A stretch of 36,294 bases of DNA from Bacteroidales bacterium (GTDB taxonomy: Bacteria; Bacteroidota; Bacteroidia; Bacteroidales; NBLH01): the NCBI GenBank assembly GCA_016937695.1, contig JAFGWC010000121.1, forward strand, positions 1 through 36,294. The letters run 5' to 3'. Made by a program: the position numbers and the translations under genes. Shown here in pieces: positions 9,922 through 36,294 of the stretch. Each line of letters opens with the position of its first letter. Positions within the stretch are counted from its first letter, which is position 1. The notes below the pieces were generated by a model. The model saw only the letters and a program-made list of their open reading frames with translations, did no database searches and was not told where the DNA came from.

Positions 9922-10374
9922 ATGGTGATGCTTAACAAAAATTTTTTAATTAAAGGTTCTATAAGTACTGATGTAGTAAAAAAAGAAATAAATCAGATAA
10001 ATACCGCATCAATGGGCGCTCAATCTGTTTTTTTAGGTCAAGTAAGACCCGATAATATTGAAGGAAAAGTTGTAAAAGAAATAGAATATTCTGCTTACGA
10101 AGAGATGGTAAAAATAGAACTTGAAAAGATATTCTCAGACATAAGTACAAAATATGATGATTTGCAAAAAATTATTATAATTCATTCAATTGGCAAAGTA
10201 AAAGCCGGTGAATATTCTTTATTTATATTTGTTGGTGCTGGACATAGAAAAAATGTATTTCTAGCACTTGACGACATCGTTAATCAAATTAAAAAGAGAT
10301 TGCCAATCTGGAAAAAAGAAGTTTTTGAAGATACAAGCTATATTTGGACTGAAAACGATAAAATAATGAATTAA
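9922..10374 (+). CDS. moaE: Molybdopterin synthase catalytic subunit
   Basis: 150 residues. Partner of MoaD; it converts cyclic pyranopterin monophosphate to molybdopterin. Family strings are GAQSVFLGQVR (32-42), EYSAYEEM (55-62), HSIGKVKAGEYSLFIFV (88-104), GHRKNVFLALDDIVNQIK and LPIWKKE. The two active-site lysines of the E. coli enzyme (Lys119, Lys126) correspond to Lys124 and Lys131 here, keeping the 7-residue spacing. A second ATG two codons in (9928) is an equally possible start. It ends at a strong terminator. No moaA, moaC, moeA or moaB is in the window, so the earlier and later steps must be encoded elsewhere. Confidence 0.95.
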   Translation: MVMLNKNFLIKGSISTDVVKKEINQINTASMGAQSVFLGQVRPDNIEGKVVKEIEYSAYEEMVKIELEKIFSDISTKYDDLQKIIIIHSIGKVKAGEYSLFIFVGAGHRKNVFLALDDIVNQIKKRLPIWKKEVFEDTSYIWTENDKIMN

Positions 10375-14530: not shown

Positions 14531-14917
14531 TTATAAATTTTCAAGTTTTTTTATAAGCTTTTGAAGAGCTTTTTGTAGTGCTTGTTCAATTTCTAAAAAA
14601 GGTAATTTTTCGTTAGATTGGTATATAATCATCATAGCTACCTGATAATTAGAGTTTTGGATAGTTTGATATAAGCTGTGCTTATTTTTACGAAAAGATT
14701 CACGTAGTCTTCTTTTAAGCAGATTTCTGTCAACTGCCCTTTTAAAACGTCTTTTAGAAACACTAATTACTGATTTAACAGGAATAGAGGTGTTAAATTT
14801 AGTTTTTCGCCAAACAATTTTAACCGGATAAACGCTAACAATCTTATTTTCAGCGAATAAATCACTAATTTCAGTTTTACTGCAAAGTTTTTCAACTTTT
14901 TTATAAGATAAATTCAT
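14531..14917 (-). CDS. rnpA: Ribonuclease P protein component
   Basis: 128 residues from the chosen start. The protein assists the RNase P RNA in 5' processing of tRNA precursors. The family motif is clear: SVSKRRFKRAVDRNLLKRRLRESFR region (basic helix with RAVxRNxxKRxxRE), preceded by a strand ending PVKSVISVS. A longer frame starts at 14959, but that ATG lies inside the -7 promoter element (14957-14964), so MNLSYKKVEKLCSK at 14917 is the start; it also matches the usual N terminus of bacterial RnpA. Its neighbours hemD and DUF4271 upstream are the usual ones in this phylum. rpmH and dnaA, the partners in many other bacteria, are absent. Confidence 0.95.
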   Translation of the reverse strand: MNLSYKKVEKLCSKTEISDLFAENKIVSVYPVKIVWRKTKFNTSIPVKSVISVSKRRFKRAVDRNLLKRRLRESFRKNKHSLYQTIQNSNYQVAMMIIYQSNEKLPFLEIEQALQKALQKLIKKLENL

Positions 14918-14956
14918 ATAATTTACTGAAATATAATTTGTTAGATATTGAGTTAA

Positions 14957-14989
14957 CAAATTTAAGTTAATTTAAATTTGATGTACAAA
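14957..14989 (-). promoter_or_regulatory. Promoter of rnpA
   Basis: On the minus strand TTTG (complement of 14986-14989), 21 bases, TAAATTTG (complement of 14957-14964), a perfect -7. The start should be near 14950, about 33 bases before the ATG at 14917. It lies just downstream of the hemD terminator. Confidence 0.7.
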
Positions 14990-18984: not shown

Positions 18985-19000
18985 ATTTCCACGTGGAACA
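18985..19000. promoter_or_regulatory. parS-like site 1
   Basis: The core TTCCACGTGGAA (18987-18998) is a perfect palindrome extended on the right to GGAACA. It differs from the two sites at 24470-24522 only in the outer left bases. It resembles ParB-binding parS (consensus TGTTNCACGTGAAACA). Confidence 0.5.
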
Positions 19001-20857: not shown

Positions 20858-22672
20858 CTACAATTTCTTACTTTTATTAAAATAATTAAAAATAATTTCA
20901 GCTTTAACAGATTTCACTACTTTTTTTAATTCCTCCACACTTGCATTTTTAATATTTGCGATTGTTTTGAAATTTTCAATTAATGCAAATTTTGTTTTTT
21001 CACCTACTCCATTAATTTCATCTAATTCCGAAATTAACATTCCTTTTGACCTTTTATCGCGATGAAATGTTATTCCAAATCTATGAGCTTCATTTCTGGC
21101 TTGTTGAATTATTTTTAAAGTTTCAGAATTTTTATCAATGTAAAGCGGAACAGGATCGTTTGGAAAATAAATTTCTTCCAATCGTTTAGCAATTCCAATT
21201 ATACTTATTTTTCCGCGCAAGTTCAATTCATCTAAACTTTCAACAGCCGAACTTAACTGACCTTTTCCTCCGTCAACAATAATTAATTGCGGTAAATTCT
21301 GTTTCTCATCAAGCAATCTTTTATATCTGCGAAAAATTATTTCTTTCATCGAAGCAAAATCATCGATTCCTTCAACAGTTTTAATATTAAAATGTCGATA
21401 ATCCTTTTTTGCCGGTTTTGCGTTTTTAAATACTACACATGCTGCAACAGGAAAATTTCCCTGAATATTTGAATTATCAAAACATTCAATGTGTACCGGA
21501 AGTTCCGGCAAATGTAAATCGTCTTTAATTTTGCTTAATATTCGATTTGTATGCTTAAGCGGATCAATATTTTCTTTGTGTTTTTTCTTTTCTAAACGAT
21601 AAAATTTAACGTTTTTTTCAGATAATTCAAGCAGCTTTTTTTTATCACCAATTTGAGGAATTATAAACTTTATATTATCAATATTAAAATCCAAATCAAA
21701 AGGTACAATTATTTCTTTGGAAACACTGTAAAACTTATTTCTTATTTCAATAATTCCCATTATTAATAAATCTTCTTTCGATTCGTCTAATTTCTTTTTA
21801 ATTTCTATAGTATTTACTTGAATGATAGAGCCATTAGCAACTTTTAAATAATTAACGTAAGCAAAATCTTCATCAGCAATAATTGAAAAAACATCTACAT
21901 TATCAATTTTCGGATTTACAATTGTAGATTTACTTTCGTAAGTTTCAAGCAATTTCAAGTTTTCTTTTATTTGATTTGCATTTTCAAATTCATAATTATC
22001 AGAGAAACGATGCATTTGTTCCTTCAATAATTTAATCACTGTATGGATATTTCCTTTTAAAATATGTCTAATGTAATTAATTTTATCATCGTAATCTTGT
22101 ACTCTTTGTTTGCCAATACAAGGCGCCAAGCAATTTCCAATATGATATTCAAGGCATACCTTAAACTTATTTGTGTTTATATTTTCAGAGCTTAAATTAT
22201 GCTTACAAGTTCTCAATTTATAAATTTCCTTAAACATGCTAATCATAAGCCTAACCAAGTGCACAGAAGCATATGGCCCGAAATATTCAGAGCCGTCTTT
22301 AACAACATTTCTTGTGTAAAAAACACGCGGAAATCTTTCGTTTTTAATACAAATCCAAGGATACGATTTATCATCTTTTAAGAGTACATTATATCTTGGC
22401 TGATATTTTTTTATTAAATTATTTTCAAGTAATAAAGCATCAGTTTCTGTCTCAACAACAATATGCTTAATATCAAATATCTTTCTTACGAGAATTCTAG
22501 TCTTCGCACTCTCGTGACTTTTTGTAAAGTACGACGCAACTCTCTTTTTTAGATTTTTTGCTTTACCAACGTAAATAATTTTCCCGCTTTTATCAAAATA
22601 TTGATAAACTCCGGGTTTTTCAGGTAAAACTTTAACCTGTAATTTCAATTTATCTATTAGCTTTTCCGGCAT
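20858..22672 (-). CDS. uvrC: UvrABC excinuclease subunit C
   Basis: 604 residues, normal length. It makes both incisions in nucleotide excision repair. The N-terminal GIY-YIG nuclease (PGVYQYFDKSGKIIYVGKAKNLKKR, about 19-45) makes the 3' cut. A UVR motif (about residues 200-235) binds UvrB. The RNase H-like nuclease has HIECFDNSNIQG with its catalytic Asp, and LIIVDGGKGQLSSA. Tandem helix-hairpin-helix elements (ELDEINGVGEKTKFALIENF) close the protein. It is preceded by the terminator of the adenine deaminase gene, with its own candidate promoter. Confidence 0.98.
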   Translation of the reverse strand: MPEKLIDKLKLQVKVLPEKPGVYQYFDKSGKIIYVGKAKNLKKRVASYFTKSHESAKTRILVRKIFDIKHIVVETETDALLLENNLIKKYQPRYNVLLKDDKSYPWICIKNERFPRVFYTRNVVKDGSEYFGPYASVHLVRLMISMFKEIYKLRTCKHNLSSENINTNKFKVCLEYHIGNCLAPCIGKQRVQDYDDKINYIRHILKGNIHTVIKLLKEQMHRFSDNYEFENANQIKENLKLLETYESKSTIVNPKIDNVDVFSIIADEDFAYVNYLKVANGSIIQVNTIEIKKKLDESKEDLLIMGIIEIRNKFYSVSKEIIVPFDLDFNIDNIKFIIPQIGDKKKLLELSEKNVKFYRLEKKKHKENIDPLKHTNRILSKIKDDLHLPELPVHIECFDNSNIQGNFPVAACVVFKNAKPAKKDYRHFNIKTVEGIDDFASMKEIIFRRYKRLLDEKQNLPQLIIVDGGKGQLSSAVESLDELNLRGKISIIGIAKRLEEIYFPNDPVPLYIDKNSETLKIIQQARNEAHRFGITFHRDKRSKGMLISELDEINGVGEKTKFALIENFKTIANIKNASVEELKKVVKSVKAEIIFNYFNKSKKL

Positions 22673-22755: not shown

Positions 22756-24381
22756 CTAAACAAATAAAGAAGTTTCTGAAAATTTTAATCCGTCAAATAA
22801 ATATTTATCGCCAATTTTTAATTCAGGAATTACTAATAAAGCCATAAATGACAATGTCATAAAAGGAGCATGCAATGTACTTCCCCATTCCTTAGCTTTC
22901 GCATTTAGTTTTTTATATTTATCAGCAACAATTTCTGCATTCTCATTTGACATTAAACCTGCAATTGGCAGAGCTAAATCTAAAATTTCATCACCATTAA
23001 GCGCAACAATAGCTCCTTTATGCTCAACAACTTTATTTATAGCATTTAAAATATCTACATCACAAACTCCAACAGCAATAATATTATGACTATCATGAGC
23101 CACACTACCAGCAATTGCTCCTTTTTTTAAGCCAAAGTTTTTTATGAATCCAACAACAGGTTTTGAATTATTATATCTATTAACAACCACAATTTTTAAT
23201 ACATCATTTTCAACATCACTAACCAAGCTACCTTCGTCTACCTTTGGTTTCACTATTTCTTTAGCTGTATACAAGTCGCCATCTTTCGCTACAATAACTT
23301 GAATGTTTTTTCCTATATCTTTAATTAAAATATCATCAATACTAAGCGATGTTCTATTAAAGTTATTAATCAAGTCAATAGATTTTGTTTCAATAAGCGA
23401 GCGGTTTTCAGAATAAACACATTCACCATCAATATATGTTTCAAGCACATTTAATTCTTGTAGATTATTAACAATAATAAAATCTGCCTTATCTCCTACT
23501 CTTAGTAAGCCGACATCTAATTTATAATGTTCAACAGGGTTTACAGTTGCAGATCTAAACGCATCAAAGAAATCAACTCCTTCATCAACAGCTCTTTTAA
23601 CAAGCTGCAAAATATGCTTTTCAATTAAATCATCAGGATGACAATCATCTGTACACAACATTACATCATCAGGATATTTAATTAGCACAGGCCATAGAGC
23701 CTCAAAGTTTTTAGCCGCACTGCCTTCTCTAATCTGCAATTTAATACCCAATTTAATCTTATCAATAGCCTCATTTTCACAAACACTTTCATGGTCTGTT
23801 GTAATCCCACCGGCGGCATATTTCATTAAGCTTTCGCCTTTTAAACCAGGTGCATGTCCATCAATAGGTTTAGATGCTTTTTTTGCAGCAGCTAATTTCA
23901 AAGCTACTTCCTTATCTCCATACACAACACCAGGAAAATTCATCATTTCCGATAAATATTTAATTTCATCTCGCTGCAATAAAGACTCAACATCAGCACT
24001 ATTCAATTCAAAACCAGAAGATTCAAAAGCAGTTGCAGGCACACAAGATGGTGCACCAAAATAAAATTTGAATGGAACCCGCTTTCCGTCGTCAATCATA
24101 AAGTCCACGCCTCTTAAACCAAGAACATTGGCAATCTCGTGCGGATCAGAGACACTTGCAACAGTACCGTGAGTAACAGCAAGCCTCGCAAACTCCTGAG
24201 GAATCAACATTGAACTTTCTATATGCACATGAGAATCAACAATTCCCGGAAGAATGAAGTCTTCAAAAAAATCATCTCTTCCTAAAATCTTTTCAATTCT
24301 CCCATCAACTATAAAAACTTCAGCCGGAAAAGCTGTTCTTTCGAAAACATCAACATAATTTCCTTTTACGCTATACCTCAT
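22756..24381 (-). CDS. ade: Adenine deaminase
   Basis: 541 residues from the chosen start. The enzyme converts adenine to hypoxanthine with release of ammonia, feeding purine salvage. It is an amidohydrolase with metal-binding LPGIVDSHVHIESSM, then GHAPGLKG, TTDHE and CTDDCHPDDL, and the Ade-specific C-terminal domain with AGSVAHDSHNIIAVG and PIAGLMS. The frame extends to an ATG at 24423, but MRYSVKGNYVDVFE at 24381 matches the family's N terminus and has an A-rich leader, so it is preferred. It lies 142 bases after mnmG on the same strand; two parS-like palindromes fill part of that gap. It has its own terminator. Confidence 0.94.
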   Translation of the reverse strand: MRYSVKGNYVDVFERTAFPAEVFIVDGRIEKILGRDDFFEDFILPGIVDSHVHIESSMLIPQEFARLAVTHGTVASVSDPHEIANVLGLRGVDFMIDDGKRVPFKFYFGAPSCVPATAFESSGFELNSADVESLLQRDEIKYLSEMMNFPGVVYGDKEVALKLAAAKKASKPIDGHAPGLKGESLMKYAAGGITTDHESVCENEAIDKIKLGIKLQIREGSAAKNFEALWPVLIKYPDDVMLCTDDCHPDDLIEKHILQLVKRAVDEGVDFFDAFRSATVNPVEHYKLDVGLLRVGDKADFIIVNNLQELNVLETYIDGECVYSENRSLIETKSIDLINNFNRTSLSIDDILIKDIGKNIQVIVAKDGDLYTAKEIVKPKVDEGSLVSDVENDVLKIVVVNRYNNSKPVVGFIKNFGLKKGAIAGSVAHDSHNIIAVGVCDVDILNAINKVVEHKGAIVALNGDEILDLALPIAGLMSNENAEIVADKYKKLNAKAKEWGSTLHAPFMTLSFMALLVIPELKIGDKYLFDGLKFSETSLFV

Positions 24382-24469
24382 TTTATTTTCATTTTTTTTA
24401 TTAAACAATAATCGCGAACACACTCAAAACCCCAACAAAACAGAGGAACACACATGCTTTAATAATAAC

Positions 24470-24483
24470 GTTCCACGTGGAAC
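24470..24483. promoter_or_regulatory. parS-like site 2
   Basis: GTTCCACGTGGAAC, a perfect 14-base palindrome flanked by C and A. It lies between mnmG and ade, 39 bases centre to centre from site 3. It resembles the ParB-binding sequence, with GGAA in place of GAAA. Confidence 0.62.
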
Positions 24484-24508
24484 AAATATGACAAGCAACC
24501 CCAAAAAC

Positions 24509-24522
24509 GTTCCACGTGGAAC
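24509..24522. promoter_or_regulatory. parS-like site 3, abutting the mnmG stop
   Basis: The same 14-base palindrome GTTCCACGTGGAAC, flanked by C and A, ending two bases before the mnmG stop codon. Sites 2 and 3 share CGTTCCACGTGGAACA, 16 identical bases. Confidence 0.62.
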
Positions 24523-24523
24523 A

Positions 24524-26395
24524 TTATCTACCCATGTATACCAAAAGAATATTTACGTCTGAAGGTGAAACTCCAGGTATCCTACTGGCTTGCCCAATCG
24601 TTTTGGGTTTAATTTCACTAAGCTTTTGTCTGGCTTCTATTGAGATAGAGCCCAAATCTGAGTATTGAAAATCATCTTTGATTTTTATCCGTTCTAATCT
24701 TTTGATTTTATCTGCTATTATTTTTTCTCTTTCGATGTATCCTTCGTATTTTATTTTAGTTTCGACATACTGCAATACTTCGTTTTTATAACACGTAATC
24801 ATATTTGCCACTTCTCTAAATTGAGGACAATTATGGATTAGGTCAACTATTTTTATTTGTGGTCTAAGTATTAGTTGATCTAATTTAACCGATTCCTTGA
24901 GCTCGCTTGTGTTGATTTTAACAAGAAACGGATTGATGTCTTTTGCTTTAACTTTTTTTGACTTGCAAAAATCAAAAACCATCTGGATATTCTTCTTCTT
25001 CTCTAAATACGCATCGTACCTTTCTTGCTTAGCCAATCCCATAGCGTAGGCTTTTGAAGTTAACCTTTCGTCGGCATTATCTTGCCTTAGCAATATTCTA
25101 AATTCTGCTCTGGATGTAAACATTCTGTATGGTTCGTCTACACCTTTTGTAACTAAATCATCAATGAGCACACCTATATAAGCTTCATCTCGACTTAATA
25201 TAAAATCTTCTTTGTTTGTTATCTTTTGGTGTGCGTTTATACCGGCCACAATACCTTGCGCAGCAGCTTCTTCATAACCAGTAGTTCCGTTTATTTGTCC
25301 TGAAAAATAAAGCCCTTGAATTTTTTTTGTTTCCAGAGTATGGTTTAATTGCGTTGGGTCTAAATAATCATATTCTATTGCATAGGCTGGCCTATAAATG
25401 CGTGCATTTTCAAGGCCTTTTATTTTTTTTAAGGCGTTTAATTGAACCTCTAGAGGTAAAGATGATGAAAACCCATTTAAATAATACTCGTTAGTATCTG
25501 TTCCTTCTGGCTCTAAAAAAAGCTGATGCTGGTCTTTATCAGAAAATGTAATTAGTTTATCTTCAATGCTAGGGCAATATCTAGGGCCAACTCCTGCGAT
25601 AGTTCCATTAAATAAAGGCGACGATGAAAAACCCTTTCTTAACTCAGAATGTACTCCAGGATTAGTAAATGTAATAAAACAATTTCTTTGCTTTTTTAAT
25701 TTTGGCTGCTTTATATACGAAAACCCTATTTCACCCACATCTCCCATTTGTTCTTCCATCACACTAAAATCGATAGTTCTACCATCGATACGTGGAGGCG
25801 TTCCCGTTTTCATTCTTCCGGAAGAGAAACCTAATGATACAAGTTGTTCTGTTAATCCTTGTGATGCAGGTTCTGCCATTCTCCCACCTCCTACTTGAGT
25901 TCCGCCAACGTGTATAATTCCATTTAAAAATGTTCCATTTGTTAATATTACAGCCTCTGATTTAATTTCAACTCCAAGCTTTGTTTTAACACCTTTTACT
26001 TTATTATCTTCAACAATTAAAGAAGTAACAGTGTCTTGCCAAAGATTCAAATTCTCAATATTCTCTAAAATAGTTCTCCATTCATCAGAAAATTTCATTC
26101 TATCTGATTGCGCTCTCGGACTCCACATTGCAGGCCCTTTTGATTTATTTAGCATTCTAAATTGTATGCTGGTTCTATCTGTCACAATTCCCATATATCC
26201 TCCAAGAGCATCTATTTCACGCACTATTTGACCTTTAGCAATTCCTCCAACAGCCGGATTGCAAGACATTTGTGCAAATTTTGCCATATCCATTGTAATC
26301 AAAAGCGTTTTTGAGCCTAAATTTGCTGCTGCTGCTGCTGCCTCGCAACCGGCATGTCCGCCACCAACAACAATTATATCGTATTTGAATTCCAT
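24524..26395 (-). CDS. mnmG: tRNA uridine-5-carboxymethylaminomethyl modification enzyme
   Basis: 623 residues, normal length. With MnmE it installs the carboxymethylaminomethyl group on U34 of certain tRNAs. The FAD-binding Rossmann motif [12 protein letters not shown] (9-20) is followed by the MnmG strings [20 protein letters not shown] and [33 protein letters not shown] and [17 protein letters not shown] follow, with the helical C-terminal domain ending [19 protein letters not shown]. The six Ala codons at residues 19-24 are a pure GCA run, a possible slippage site. Its ATG overlaps the ybeY stop by one base (TAATG), so translation is probably coupled. The MnmE gene is not in the window. 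Confidence 0.98.
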
Positions 26396-26826
26396 TAAAT
26401 TAATTTTTTATTATAATAATTATTCAAGCAAATGTCTTCTTTTTTTCTCATCTGTATTTTTTCTAAATCAGAATGATCTTTAAAGCCTACTAAATGCAAT
26501 ATTCCGTGTATTATTACTCTATTTAATTCTTCTAAAAAAGCTAAATTATACTCTTTTGAATTCTCCTTAACCCTATCAATACTAATATAAATATCACTAT
26601 TTATAATGTTTTTTTCGCAATAATTAAATGTAATTATATCTGTATAATAATCGTGTTTTAGGTATTCTTTATTTATTTGCAAAAGATATTCGTCTGAACA
26701 AAATATATAATTAATATTTCCAGTTTGTTTATTGTATTTAGAAATACAATTTTTTATCCATTGCTTTTTAAAAGTTTGATTCAAATAAAAGGGTTTCTTG
26801 TCTTCGAAATAAAAATTTATTGCCAT
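26395..26826 (-). CDS. ybeY: Endoribonuclease YbeY
   Basis: 143 residues. A metal-dependent RNase for rRNA maturation and ribosome quality control. The zinc motif is visible as His107, His111 and probably His118 in [12 protein letters not shown]; the last spacing is one residue longer than in E. coli (GFKDH for GYDH). [11 protein letters not shown] and the strand DIYISIDRV match the family. Two bases separate it from the ATPase gene upstream and it overlaps mnmG downstream by one base. Confidence 0.95.
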
Positions 26827-27229: not shown

Positions 27230-30200
27230 TTATTTTAATTTAATAAAATATTCTTTTGTCAAATTTTTGTAATAATTTTTTAAGTCTAAATTACTTTTTT
27301 CTAATAGTTCTTTGCTTTTGGTATCCTTTTCGAATTGTATTTTAAGCATCTCCGGAATAACTATTTTCTTGTCTTTTGCTTCTTCAGATTCTCTTTTTTT
27401 ATCCTTCTCTCTTTCTTTTTCAGCCTTTTCGGCTTCTAAAAGTCTTGTTAAAATTAAATTATTCCTTTCTAATAAATTATTATTGATGTTTTTATTTATT
27501 AAATCTTCAATATTTTTGTCTGTTAATTGTTTAATTTGTTTTAATTTTTGACTCAACTCTGGATTTATACCTTCCTTGTTTTGCATTTCGCCTAACATTT
27601 TATTAAAAATTTCCTGATCTTGAAGCATTTTCACAATTCTTTTATTGATTGATTTAGAATCCATTTTTCCGTTACCTTTTTTCATGTCTTCTAACATTTG
27701 TTTAAGTTGCTCTTTGAAATTTTCTTGTTGCGATTTCATTGCGCCTAAATCCTGCGATTTACTTTTGTTCTTTCCATTTCCAGAGCCAGAAGATGACATC
27801 TGTTTTTGCATTTGCTCTTTTAATTCATCTAAATATAATGCTAAAATATTTGCCGAATTTAAGATAAATCTTTGAGTCCTCATTGCGCCTCTTCTTGAAC
27901 GTCTTTCAATTTCTTCGTTTGTTTTCAATAAGTTTATATTGATTTCTTTTAATTCTTTCAAAATCAAATTGCTTAATTGTGGTATTTGTTTTGACAATGA
28001 TTTTAAAGAATCTTCGATAATTACAAAGTCATTTTTTAGTTTATTCTGCTGTGATATTAACTCTAAATAATTAGGATTATTAATTAAAGTTTGATTTAAA
28101 AGATTGTATGTATCTTCTTGATTAATTGAAAAAGTTGATAAATTTTCTATTATTTGTCTTAAATCTTCGATGCCAATTTGCATGGTTTGCTTATTCATAT
28201 TGCCAAACATATTTTGCATTTGTTCAGACAGTTTCTTTAAATCTTTTGAAATTTCTTGTTGTTGCTGAGAGTTCTTTTTGTTCGAATTTTCATCAAACTT
28301 TTCATTTAAATATTTTAATTTTTGATCTATTCCGTTTATTGATTCATCTAATTTTTCTAGTTTATAAGGTTTTTCAAGATTTTTATTATTTTCAATATTT
28401 TCATTAAATTTTTCTTTTATTTTTTCAAATTCATCCGAAAGTTCTTTTTGCTGATTAGTTATCTCCTCTTTATTGCTTTTATTTATTTTCTCCTTTGATA
28501 ATTCATCTTGTATTTCAGAAAGTTTTTTTAAATCTTCTGCCATATGTAAAACATTCTCTTCAACTTGATATCTTTTAAGAAGTTCTAAACTTCGTTCTAA
28601 TTTGTCGTTTAATTCTTTATACGAAAAATCAAAATTCTGTTTTATGTTTTCAAAATCTTTATTCTCAAATTCTTCCGACAATTTTTTCAATTCATCTAAC
28701 AATGCTTTTAATTCATCATCTATTACTTGATCTAACAATTGTTGAATTTGTTTTTGCTTTTCAAGCAATTCATGTTGCTCTTTATAAAACTGTTTATTAA
28801 AATTATTTCGTTTAGCATTTTCATTACTAAGTTGTTTTAATAAATCATCAAGTTTTTTCTGTTTTTCAACTAAGTTTGTAGCAAAATTTTGTTTATCCCA
28901 ATCTGTTAACTCATTATTTAATTCTTTCTTTTTAAAATTAAATATGTCTTTTCGTATATCTTCAGTAATATTTTGACTTTTTTTTATAAAATCTTTAGTA
29001 CTTTTATCTAAATTTAAAATTTCTTGTTGTATATCGCTTACAGACAATGGTTTAAATACTTTATTATACGATTTTGCTGATTTAAATCCATTAATATAGT
29101 CATTATCAAAAACCTGAAAGTAGTATTCTATATACTTTTCATTCATATTAGTTTTAATATCTGTAAAATCAAAATAAAAAAATGTATTCTGATTTTTAGA
29201 GTTTTTATTTATATCTAATGATTTTACATTATGAGATATTGTGCTATCATTTTTATCTTTAATATCGTAAACGAAATCTAATTTTGAAAAACCATAATCA
29301 TCACTAATGTTAGAAAAATAATAAAATGCTCCTACTTTTAATGAATCTTCTATTTCCTTTATTTCAATTAGCGGAAATTCGTCTTGAATAATGTTTACAT
29401 AATATTCTAATTTTTCTTTGGATTCGAAATATTCGTTTTCTGCTGAAATTAAATATTTAGTAGAATTAATAAATGTTTTAGTTATATTAGATTTTTCTGA
29501 AATATTAATAATGGAAGTATCATTAATTGTAGAAAAAAGAATTTTATCGGTATTTTTTGAAGTAAATTTCCAAACTAATTTTGTTCCTGCCGGAACAGTA
29601 ATATCTCCACTATTTGCAATTACACTTTTTTCATATCCTGTATAAGATGGCGGAATTGCAGTTAATGTAAAACTTTGAATAGAAGGTGAAGGTAAAACAT
29701 TAATGTTAAATGATTTTGAATAAAATTTATCAGCAAAAAATTTAAAATTCATGCTGTTATTAATATTGCGAATAGTAAAGTTAAAAGTATTTTTAAGTCC
29801 ATTCTCAGCATTTTCCATTCTAAAAAAATTATCGCCAACAACTATAAAAACTTCATTTGGAACATATTCACCAACAATTTTTAAATGCAGACTATAATCA
29901 GTTCCTCTCCTAATATTAAAACTATTATTTTGCAATTCGAAATCAAATGGTGCTTCTTTTTCGAAATATACATTGTAATTAATAATGCGAGCTGTGCCTT
30001 GTAAAAAAACTTTTGGTGCAAAAGAATATATAATTAAAAGTAATGCCAAACTTATAATCAAATAAAGAAAATTTCTTTTTATTAAAGTGAAATTAATGGC
30101 AGTGTTAAATCGTAAAGGTTTTAATTCTGCTGTTCTTTGCTCAATACTAGCCAATAGTAAATCATAATTATTATTTTCCTTATCTAATAATAGGTTTAAT

Positions 30201-30541
30201 TCTATTGCATTAAGTAATTTATCATCTAATTGCGGAAAATACTTGACTATTAAATTATTAGCTTGCTTAAAATTAATGCTTTTTCGAAATTTTAAAAGTG
30301 TTAATAATGGCAAAAAAATATAATAAATAAATATTATAAGAAATGAAAATATAGTTGTGAAAAATAAAATATTCCTGCTTGTTATAGAAAGATAAGAAAA
30401 ATATTCGATTAAAGATTCAATCAAAATAAAAGCAATATAAATTGATAAGGCAAAAAATAAACCTTTTATCAATTTATATGTTTGATATTTATTAATAAAT
30501 TTTTCGAGTTTCAACTTTAATATTATAAAATCTTCATTCAT
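27230..30541 (-). CDS. DUF4175 membrane protein with long coiled coil
   Basis: 1103 residues. Three hydrophobic segments near the N terminus (about 23-46, 54-80 and 155-175) are followed by an extracytoplasmic-looking beta region (about 190-490). From about 500 to 1000 comes a long, very polar stretch rich in Lys, Glu, Gln, Asn and Leu that should form coiled coils (for example EQHELLEKQKQIQQLLDQV and LKKLSEEFENKDFENIKQN). Near residue 890 is RRSRRGAMRTQR and after it a Ser/Gly/Lys-rich linker (SSSGSGNGKNKSKS). The pattern fits the DUF4175 family of Bacteroidota; function is unknown. It lies 3 bases after the EnvC-like gene and 5 before the ATPase, so it belongs to that operon. A role in the cell envelope is inference from the neighbour. 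Confidence 0.82.
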   Translation of the reverse strand: MNEDFIILKLKLEKFINKYQTYKLIKGLFFALSIYIAFILIESLIEYFSYLSITSRNILFFTTIFSFLIIFIYYIFLPLLTLLKFRKSINFKQANNLIVKYFPQLDDKLLNAIELNLLLDKENNNYDLLLASIEQRTAELKPLRFNTAINFTLIKRNFLYLIISLALLLIIYSFAPKVFLQGTARIINYNVYFEKEAPFDFELQNNSFNIRRGTDYSLHLKIVGEYVPNEVFIVVGDNFFRMENAENGLKNTFNFTIRNINNSMNFKFFADKFYSKSFNINVLPSPSIQSFTLTAIPPSYTGYEKSVIANSGDITVPAGTKLVWKFTSKNTDKILFSTINDTSIINISEKSNITKTFINSTKYLISAENEYFESKEKLEYYVNIIQDEFPLIEIKEIEDSLKVGAFYYFSNISDDYGFSKLDFVYDIKDKNDSTISHNVKSLDINKNSKNQNTFFYFDFTDIKTNMNEKYIEYYFQVFDNDYINGFKSAKSYNKVFKPLSVSDIQQEILNLDKSTKDFIKKSQNITEDIRKDIFNFKKKELNNELTDWDKQNFATNLVEKQKKLDDLLKQLSNENAKRNNFNKQFYKEQHELLEKQKQIQQLLDQVIDDELKALLDELKKLSEEFENKDFENIKQNFDFSYKELNDKLERSLELLKRYQVEENVLHMAEDLKKLSEIQDELSKEKINKSNKEEITNQQKELSDEFEKIKEKFNENIENNKNLEKPYKLEKLDESINGIDQKLKYLNEKFDENSNKKNSQQQQEISKDLKKLSEQMQNMFGNMNKQTMQIGIEDLRQIIENLSTFSINQEDTYNLLNQTLINNPNYLELISQQNKLKNDFVIIEDSLKSLSKQIPQLSNLILKELKEININLLKTNEEIERRSRRGAMRTQRFILNSANILALYLDELKEQMQKQMSSSGSGNGKNKSKSQDLGAMKSQQENFKEQLKQMLEDMKKGNGKMDSKSINKRIVKMLQDQEIFNKMLGEMQNKEGINPELSQKLKQIKQLTDKNIEDLINKNINNNLLERNNLILTRLLEAEKAEKEREKDKKRESEEAKDKKIVIPEMLKIQFEKDTKSKELLEKSNLDLKNYYKNLTKEYFIKLK

Positions 30542-34878: not shown

Positions 34879-36294
34879 TTATTTATTACGCTTTAATGTA
34901 TCTAATCTGAAATTTTCCTTTTTTAAAACAAATACAAAAAAACTAAATAATAATAATATATTCAAAATAATGTAATAATCTATTAAATATCTTAAAAGAA
35001 GATTTAAAAAATAGATTAATAAAGCAATAATTAAATATATAAATATATTTTTTAAATCATATTCGATATAATAATGTTTATTTCCGTAATAATATGAAAG
35101 TAACATCATAGCAAAATATGCAAAAAATGCAGCCCAAGCTGCTCCTAAATAACCAAAAATTGGAACTAAAATAATATTCAAAATTATTGTTACTATTGCA
35201 CCAACAAATGCAAGTATAACAGCATATTTAGTTTTATTTGTTAATTTATACCAAATTGATAAATTGAAAACAATTCCAAAAAATATTTTTCCGAATAATA
35301 AAACTGGTACAATTTTTAATCCTTCGTGATAACTAGGATCTATAATATATTTGACAAAATCGATTAATAATGTAATTCCTAAAAAAACAGACAACCCAAA
35401 AATTATAAAAAATTTCATAACTTTTGCATACATAACTTTTGCATCAGCATTTTTTGCATAACTAAAGAAAAATGGCTCAGCAGCATATCTAAAAGCTTGA
35501 ATAAATAAAGTCATTAATACAGCAATTTTAACATTTGCACCGTAAATTCCTAATTCAGACATTACATATGCCGGAGCATCAATAATATGCGCAGGAATAG
35601 TAAGTAAATATTTAATTAAAACTTTATCAAGATTTTCAGATATCATTCCTGCTAATCCGGCAAATAAAAGTGGTATCGAATATTTTAATATCTGCTTTAG
35701 AAGAGGAAAATCAAATTTAAAAACTTTAAAAGCTGTAGACATTTCAGGTATCAACAAGAATAAAGTTATAATACTGGTTATAAAATAGGAAATAAAAATA
35801 TATCCTACATCAATTCCATTATAAATATTTCTATAGAAAAAATTATCTGAACTAAAATATTTAGGAAGTATTATAAGGAAAAAGATATTTAAAATAACAT
35901 TTACAGAAATATTAACCAATTTGATAGTTACAAATTTCCATGCTTTTCGCTTTAAGCGGAGACTAGCAAAAGGAATTGAAGAAAAAGAATCAATTGCAAC
36001 AGTTAATCCGAGTAATAAAACATATTCAGGATTTTTACTATAACCAATTAAATCAGCAATTTGAAAACTAAAACTGTATATTAAAAAAGCAAAACCAAGT
36101 GATGTAAAAAAAACTGCTGTTAATATAGTTGAATACACAGAATTTTTATTTGTATCGGAATTTTCAGAAAATCTAAAAAATCCGGTTTCCATTCCATATG
36201 TTAAAATTACTAACAAAAAAGCTACGTATGCTTGCAATTCTGTATATACACCAAATTCGTTTGTTAAAAAAAGTCTTGTGTATAACGGTACTAA
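34879..36294 (-). CDS. Polysaccharide flippase-like membrane protein, 5' end missing
   Basis: The frame is open through the window edge, so the gene is cut. A TTG at 36237 is internal. The visible 471 residues begin LVPLYTRLFLTNEFGVYTEL, which is the first-helix pattern of Wzx/MurJ-like (MOP superfamily) transporters, and about twelve hydrophobic segments follow, including a paired repeat near residues 350-400 (LGAAWAAFFAYFAMMLL). These proteins flip lipid-linked oligosaccharides across the inner membrane. Which polysaccharide is unknown because no glycosyltransferase is visible. It is the first visible gene of the unit with dut, the TPR and the DUF4292 lipoproteins. Confidence 0.9.
   Translation of the reverse strand, partial: LVPLYTRLFLTNEFGVYTELQAYVAFLLVILTYGMETGFFRFSENSDTNKNSVYSTILTAVFFTSLGFAFLIYSFSFQIADLIGYSKNPEYVLLLGLTVAIDSFSSIPFASLRLKRKAWKFVTIKLVNISVNVILNIFFLIILPKYFSSDNFFYRNIYNGIDVGYIFISYFITSIITLFLLIPEMSTAFKVFKFDFPLLKQILKYSIPLLFAGLAGMISENLDKVLIKYLLTIPAHIIDAPAYVMSELGIYGANVKIAVLMTLFIQAFRYAAEPFFFSYAKNADAKVMYAKVMKFFIIFGLSVFLGITLLIDFVKYIIDPSYHEGLKIVPVLLFGKIFFGIVFNLSIWYKLTNKTKYAVILAFVGAIVTIILNIILVPIFGYLGAAWAAFFAYFAMMLLSYYYGNKHYYIEYDLKNIFIYLIIALLIYFLNLLLRYLIDYYIILNILLLFSFFVFVLKKENFRLDTLKRNK

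Follow-up and report, generated by a model that had tools for sequence, protein, structure and literature searches.

Predicted parS sites beside mnmG in a Bacteroidales chromosome and in other Bacteroidota

Three palindromes lying within 5.5 kb of one another around the 3' end of mnmG in a Bacteroidales genome are predicted to be targets of ParB, that is to say parS sites forming the centromere of this chromosome, and we would put the probability of this reading at roughly 93%. The sites themselves would be ordinary parS of a known kind, and the new part is their address at mnmG across the phylum; in most of the genomes examined parS is found beside mnmG, with parAB and often dnaA elsewhere. 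A preliminary description of this DNA had proposed that the palindromes were ParB sites, and the proposal is strengthened, at the level of sequence comparison, by their identity with the parS of Myxococcus xanthus, by their occurrence as one cluster, by the residues of the genome's ParB and by the retention of the motif at mnmG in other genomes. According to the mechanism envisaged, which is that of ParABS systems elsewhere, the chromosomal ParB, whose gene adjoins that of ParA on a different contig, would bind the palindromes as a dimer, would load at parS as a CTP clamp and spread over the mnmG region, and would then be moved by ParA, with the result that the replicated region around mnmG would be segregated.

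The window, by which is meant the whole stretch of 36,294 nucleotides that was analysed, is the complete contig C8 of a draft genome (G000). Sites 1 and 2 are identical 16-mers (CGTTCCACGTGGAACA) at 24469-24484 and 24508-24523, their starts being 39 bases apart, and each contains the perfect 14-base palindrome GTTCCACGTGGAAC, at 24470-24483 and 24509-24522 respectively. Site 3 (ATTTCCACGTGGAACA, 18985-19000) is situated 5.5 kb from the pair and 86 bases before a DUF389 gene, and has the same 12-base core within the 14-base form TTTCCACGTGGAAC (18986-18999), which is one base off GTTCCACGTGGAAC. The two identical strings and the third site sharing their core are all where they had originally been reported to be, and the accompanying judgement that such a set was unlikely to arise by chance was borne out, as the window has three matches to GTTCCACGTGGAAC with up to two mismatches compared to 0.01 expected, and three or more were reached in none of 100 shuffles. 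The gene mnmG (gidA; 24524-26395 including the stop codon, - strand; TIGR00136, 827 bits, cut-off 525) ends in a stop codon at 24526-24524, so that site 2 abuts it and both sites are downstream of mnmG. They are also upstream of the next gene, that for adenine deaminase (ade; 22756-24423, - strand; TIGR01178, 589 bits, cut-off 472.5), which is followed by uvrC (20858-22672, - strand; TIGR00194, 519 bits), a gene that comes after the mnmG-parS unit in several relatives. Directly upstream of mnmG, and with no intergenic DNA between the two genes, is ybeY (26395-26826, - strand; TIGR00043, 97 bits, cut-off 45).

It had been suggested that the sites be counted across the whole genome, and this count revealed a single cluster: the 12-base core TTCCACGTGGAA occurs three times in the 3,947,023 bases (159 contigs) of the draft genome, all three copies being in the window within 5.5 kb, and a reversed control pattern of TTCCACGTGGAA does not occur in the draft genome at all. 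The sites have the form TGTTYCACGTGRAACA, the 16-base palindrome by which parS is recognised, and as is usual of parS they are few and clustered (3/3 core copies within 5.5 kb). When up to three mismatches to TGTTCCACGTGGAACA were allowed, the genome gave 19 sites and the control pattern 7; a single outer base separates sites 1 and 2 from TGTTCCACGTGGAACA, and two separate site 3 from it, the best match outside the window is one asymmetric site with two mismatches (C48:46899) and the remaining 15 have three. Places elsewhere in the genome with one mismatch to GTTYCACNTGRAAC are scattered across other contigs.

Read on the opposite strand, the 16-mer of the window is identical to the parS consensus of M. 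xanthus, TGTTCCACGTGGAACG, and the M. xanthus sequence is bound in vitro by ParB in gel shift experiments, according to the available part of that report (PMC3899335). The sites had been described as resembling parS with GGAA replacing GAAA; given the identity with M. xanthus, GGAA is an established form and not a deviation. The 14-mer was also found in at least nine published texts, eight of which have titles concerned with ParB, parS, centromeres or the segregation and organisation of chromosomes. The two species differ in the number and placing of sites, there being 22 in M. xanthus, the 12 first described of which lie about 4.4 kb upstream of parA, compared to three here with parAB on another contig (PMC3899335, same part). 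In Bacillus subtilis parS, with the consensus TGTTNCACGTGAAACA (PMC7022226, portion available), is likewise a palindrome around CACGTG and is accompanied by a ParA-ParB pair, but has GAAA where the window sites have GGAA, and Smc was not found above the cut-off in the present genome; most B. subtilis sites are in the origin domain, a position that is predicted for the window sites too. Escherichia coli is not known to possess a chromosomal ParABS, or a parS beside oriC and gidA. The neighbours of its oriC are mioC and gidA, so that mnmG is beside the origin there too (PMC4446571, as excerpted). Within the same phylum, the parS of Bacteroides caecimuris and Muribaculum intestinale are mostly clustered and have been used as a mark of the origin, and in the main text of that study the words mnmG and gidA do not appear (PMC10197239).

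Conservation among relatives, which would be looked for in a parS, was assessed at several depths. The 12-base site TTYCACGTGRAA was present in 55 of the 60 genomes of the relatives search, G000 included, the other five being without it, and when 30 relatives' loci were searched by tblastn with the genes of the window, 21 had mnmG beside the site, one had only ade there and eight had none of the window genes. A genome of the same genus (G006) has a pair of sites 45 bases apart and a third 4.1 kb away. Within the class, 70 mnmG loci were compared (the 30 best-scoring and 40 picked down a list of 195 genomes with an mnmG match, G000 among them), and 64 of these, that of the present genome included, had the motif, with 127 sites in total; at 63 loci the nearest site fell inside mnmG or no further than 200 bases from it. 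For 179 permuted palindromes in the same class loci, 175 scored 2 or less, and the other four, which contain forms of the motif, scored 34-37. Outside the class but within the phylum the motif was present at 19 of 20 mnmG loci drawn from 20 families. In a named collection, which overlaps the class set at least partly (L109 and L340 share four site distances), 70 of 80 mnmG loci carried the motif inside the gene or no more than 500 bases from it, compared to three loci for the best permutation lacking motif forms. The motif was therefore absent at mnmG from 6/70 class loci, 1/20 loci outside the class and 10/80 named loci.

The layout of the sites varies with the lineage. In the named collection the Bacteroidales-type records mostly have a site 3' of mnmG, in Cytophaga-type and Pedobacter records the site, where there is one, is 5' of the gene, and in most Flavobacteria both ends carry a site. 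All five Saprospira-type records (L313, L315, L326, L336 and L344), two of which we take to be such from the genus name, have no copy of the motif at 500 bases or less from mnmG, and it is possible that they represent a clade in which the centromere has moved or changed. At eight loci (L094, L114, L119, L123, L330, L331, L332 and L337) sites fall inside the mnmG match, where the palindrome must also serve as codons.

The same tie between site and gene was seen on the scale of whole genomes. Of 24 genomes of the class, selected mostly because they have few contigs, 20 had the 14-mer, with a total of 41 sites, and four had none. Leaving out four of the 41 sites (in G113 and G173), for which a place for mnmG was lacking, 36 of the remaining 37 (18 genomes) were within 1 kb of mnmG, and the other, 26.6 kb away, is the one site of G228. 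A set of 16 genomes, of which 12 come from outside the class, gave 42 sites for the 12-mer, and the distance to mnmG was at most 1 kb for 26 of these sites and at most 2.5 kb for 28; 15 of the 16 genomes have a site, each with one within 1 kb of mnmG, and G137 is without the 12-mer. The 14 sites more than 2.5 kb away are all in three genomes from outside the class (G257, G259 and G278); some of them form clusters fairly close to mnmG, such as that of four sites at about 5 kb in G257, and others are single and distant.

Some transcription regulators bind sites with a CACGTG core, and here the pair is situated in the interval from mnmG to ade, adjoining the start of ade. It had accordingly been offered as an alternative that another CACGTG-type regulator, controlling ade or mnmG, binds here. 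This explanation we regard as very improbable, and the alternative finds no support in that the genome has a single cluster of sites and that in relatives the forms TTTCACGTGAAA, TTCCACGTGGAA and mixtures of them interchange and are found at either end of mnmG beside varied neighbours (ade, uvrC or ybeY), whilst the 16-mer is a proven parS elsewhere, namely in M. xanthus (PMC3899335, in the part cited above).

An explanation with a similarly small chance of being right is that the palindromes are an RNA hairpin or terminator at the end of mnmG that merely resembles parS, or that parS here also ends the mnmG transcript. On the mnmG strand site 1 forms a 6-pair hairpin followed by TTATTATTAA, and is one of two terminator-like places between 24350 and 24650 compared to 0.2 in shuffles; site 2 is followed by GTTTTTGGGG on that strand. 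The 76 bases around the pair (24455-24530, - strand) fold as RNA into one long stem of -35 kcal/mol (z -6.7) in which the two palindromes pair with each other, but the strength of this fold is partly due to the fact that two identical palindromes must pair, whatever their function. In relatives the sites are often 1-15 bases after the mnmG stop codon, but equally many are 5' of mnmG, and TTTT within 12 bases after the site occurs at 7/49 of the 3' sites compared to 5/57 of the 5' sites, and in a second set at 10/58 compared to 8/45, which is no commoner at 3' sites than chance and the 5' sites would suggest. As the two rates are alike, a role in termination is unlikely to be the general reason for conservation, and in this genome the sites may have a second role in ending the mnmG transcript. 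Moreover it is the sequence itself that is kept, permuted palindromes of the same composition being nearly absent from the same DNA, and the genome has only one such cluster. No Rfam family matched within the window at gathering scores.

The predicted reader of the parS sites is a single ParB, the one match in the genome above the cut-off of model TIGR00180 (C96:12853-13383, 3.4e-56), in a frame of 296 aa that adjoins two others, a ParA-like one of 257 aa and one of 244 aa. Its best solved relative is the ParB chain 7bnk (5.1e-51), and among solved structures it is nearest to chains of ParB proteins, Spo0J and Noc. According to the available text of PMC7383237, every extant ParB retains R173 and G201, in place of which Noc has Q and R; the protein here has R and G at these places, the residues of the parS type, and with ParA beside it provides the cognate ParB that parS calls for. 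R and G were likewise present in each of 13 of 15 ParB recovered by residue pattern, L130 and L134 being left out of the comparison, the latter a normal ParB with one changed residue. That the palindromes are instead nucleoid-occlusion sites of the Noc type is the least credible of the readings, for although this protein scores with the Noc model TIGR04285 as well (243 bits, below the cut-off of 315), Noc genes are confined to Firmicutes and carry Q173 and R201 (PMC7383237, as far as available), and Noc sites are spread over the genome as opposed to the one cluster found here.

One genome of the same class (G137, a single contig of 2.3 Mb) has a ParB locus (L126; TIGR00180, 4.1e-56) and no TTYCACGTGRAA site, and after the helix-turn-helix its ParB reads EGQARP compared to MGHAR or MGHAK in most others; in view of the missing site and the altered protein, the parS of this genome may have changed.

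With the Smc model nothing above the cut-off was found in the present genome or in G214, G234 and G200, which gave only stretches below 40 bits; in G097, another genome of the class, Smc is present at full length. No known condensin was found in the two Bacteroidetes of PMC10197239, according to the part of that study available. As no Smc above the cut-off was found here, it is probable that ParB-parS acts through ParA rather than by loading Smc-ScpAB.

The position of the sites with respect to the origin of replication is complicated by the separation of the genes concerned. In the portions available of PMC10197239, parS clusters together with GC skew were used to place the origins of 12 gut bacteria, which included B. 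caecimuris and M. intestinale; the places were backed by read coverage, and dnaA was not always with the origin. When contigs were taken as circles, the distance between parS and dnaA in seven single-contig genomes was 0.66 Mb (G214), 1.47 Mb (G200), 0.75 Mb (G234), 1.77 Mb (G161), 0.87 Mb (G184), 1.02 Mb (G113) and 16 kb (G097), that is 0.66-1.8 Mb in six of the seven, and parB was at least 0.3 Mb from parS in all seven (0.3 Mb in G097). The sites had been expected to cluster around parB, an expectation that failed both in these relatives and in the present genome, in which parB is on another contig. In the preliminary description the stretch was also held to be origin-proximal, in keeping with the nearness of rnpA and mnmG. 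The text available of PMC2099444 counts both gidA and rnpA as classical genes of the origin, and rnpA is found in the window at 14531-14959 (- strand; NF002509, 76 bits, and TIGR00188, 36.5 bits, both below their cut-offs). The claim is upheld in part, from relatives, and for this genome is a prediction. In G214 the skew minimum of a 220-kb stretch is at 2627301, 143 bases 5' of the mnmG match, at a point where genes change strand, which alone can be enough for a local minimum, and the coarse profile is noisy. In G234 a 140-kb stretch has its minimum at 2547347, at a distance of 19 kb from parS, with a coarse profile that turns positive once as early as 2.45 Mb, and in G200 the skew, which is weak, turns at 2.6-2.8 Mb compared to a parS at 2.997 Mb (0.2-0.4 Mb off). 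The parS-mnmG region is near a skew turn in two of these three relatives and within 0.4 Mb of one in the third, and the coarse skew (20 windows for each of the three) showed no turn at dnaA. The cumulative GC skew of the window itself has its minimum at 35658, near the right end of the contig, and its maximum at 10368, a shape that the strands of the genes alone could cause, and there is no turn at the palindromes. DnaA boxes with at most one mismatch numbered 11 in the window compared to 10.5 expected and, there being no excess, oriC was not located in the window. By analogy with the relatives we infer that this stretch would lie near oriC. A side observation concerns G128, in which six stretches on contigs C1, C2 and C3 have identical weak scores with the DnaA model, each in a frame of 261 aa; presumably they are copies of a transposon ATPase.

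Among the matches listed in a search of the literature, judged by titles and the beginnings of abstracts, there was no description of parS at mnmG in Bacteroidota, and the survey of Livny et al. (2007) may note gidA neighbourhoods. As to why the address has been kept, we lean towards the view that the tie of the Bacteroidota centromere to mnmG is a relic of an ancestral origin cluster, in which parS and probably oriC stayed in place and dnaA and parAB moved by up to megabases, that without Smc segregation would be driven by ParA alone, and that ParB spreading over mnmG, or the palindromes in its transcript, may tie the expression of mnmG to the cell cycle. If the relic view is true, the mnmG-parS unit would be a portable marker by which to place the origin in drafts and metagenome assemblies from Bacteroidota, in which dnaA misleads, and would serve a phylum that is common in the gut and the sea. 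The mnmG address also makes it testable why a centromere should stay for so long with a tRNA-modification gene, and how segregation works where Smc is not found.

One further gene of the window may be mentioned, which encodes a protein of 1103 aa (27230-30541, - strand) with only a weak match to DUF4175 (32.6 bits); a relative of it was found near mnmG in 4 of the 30 relatives' loci.
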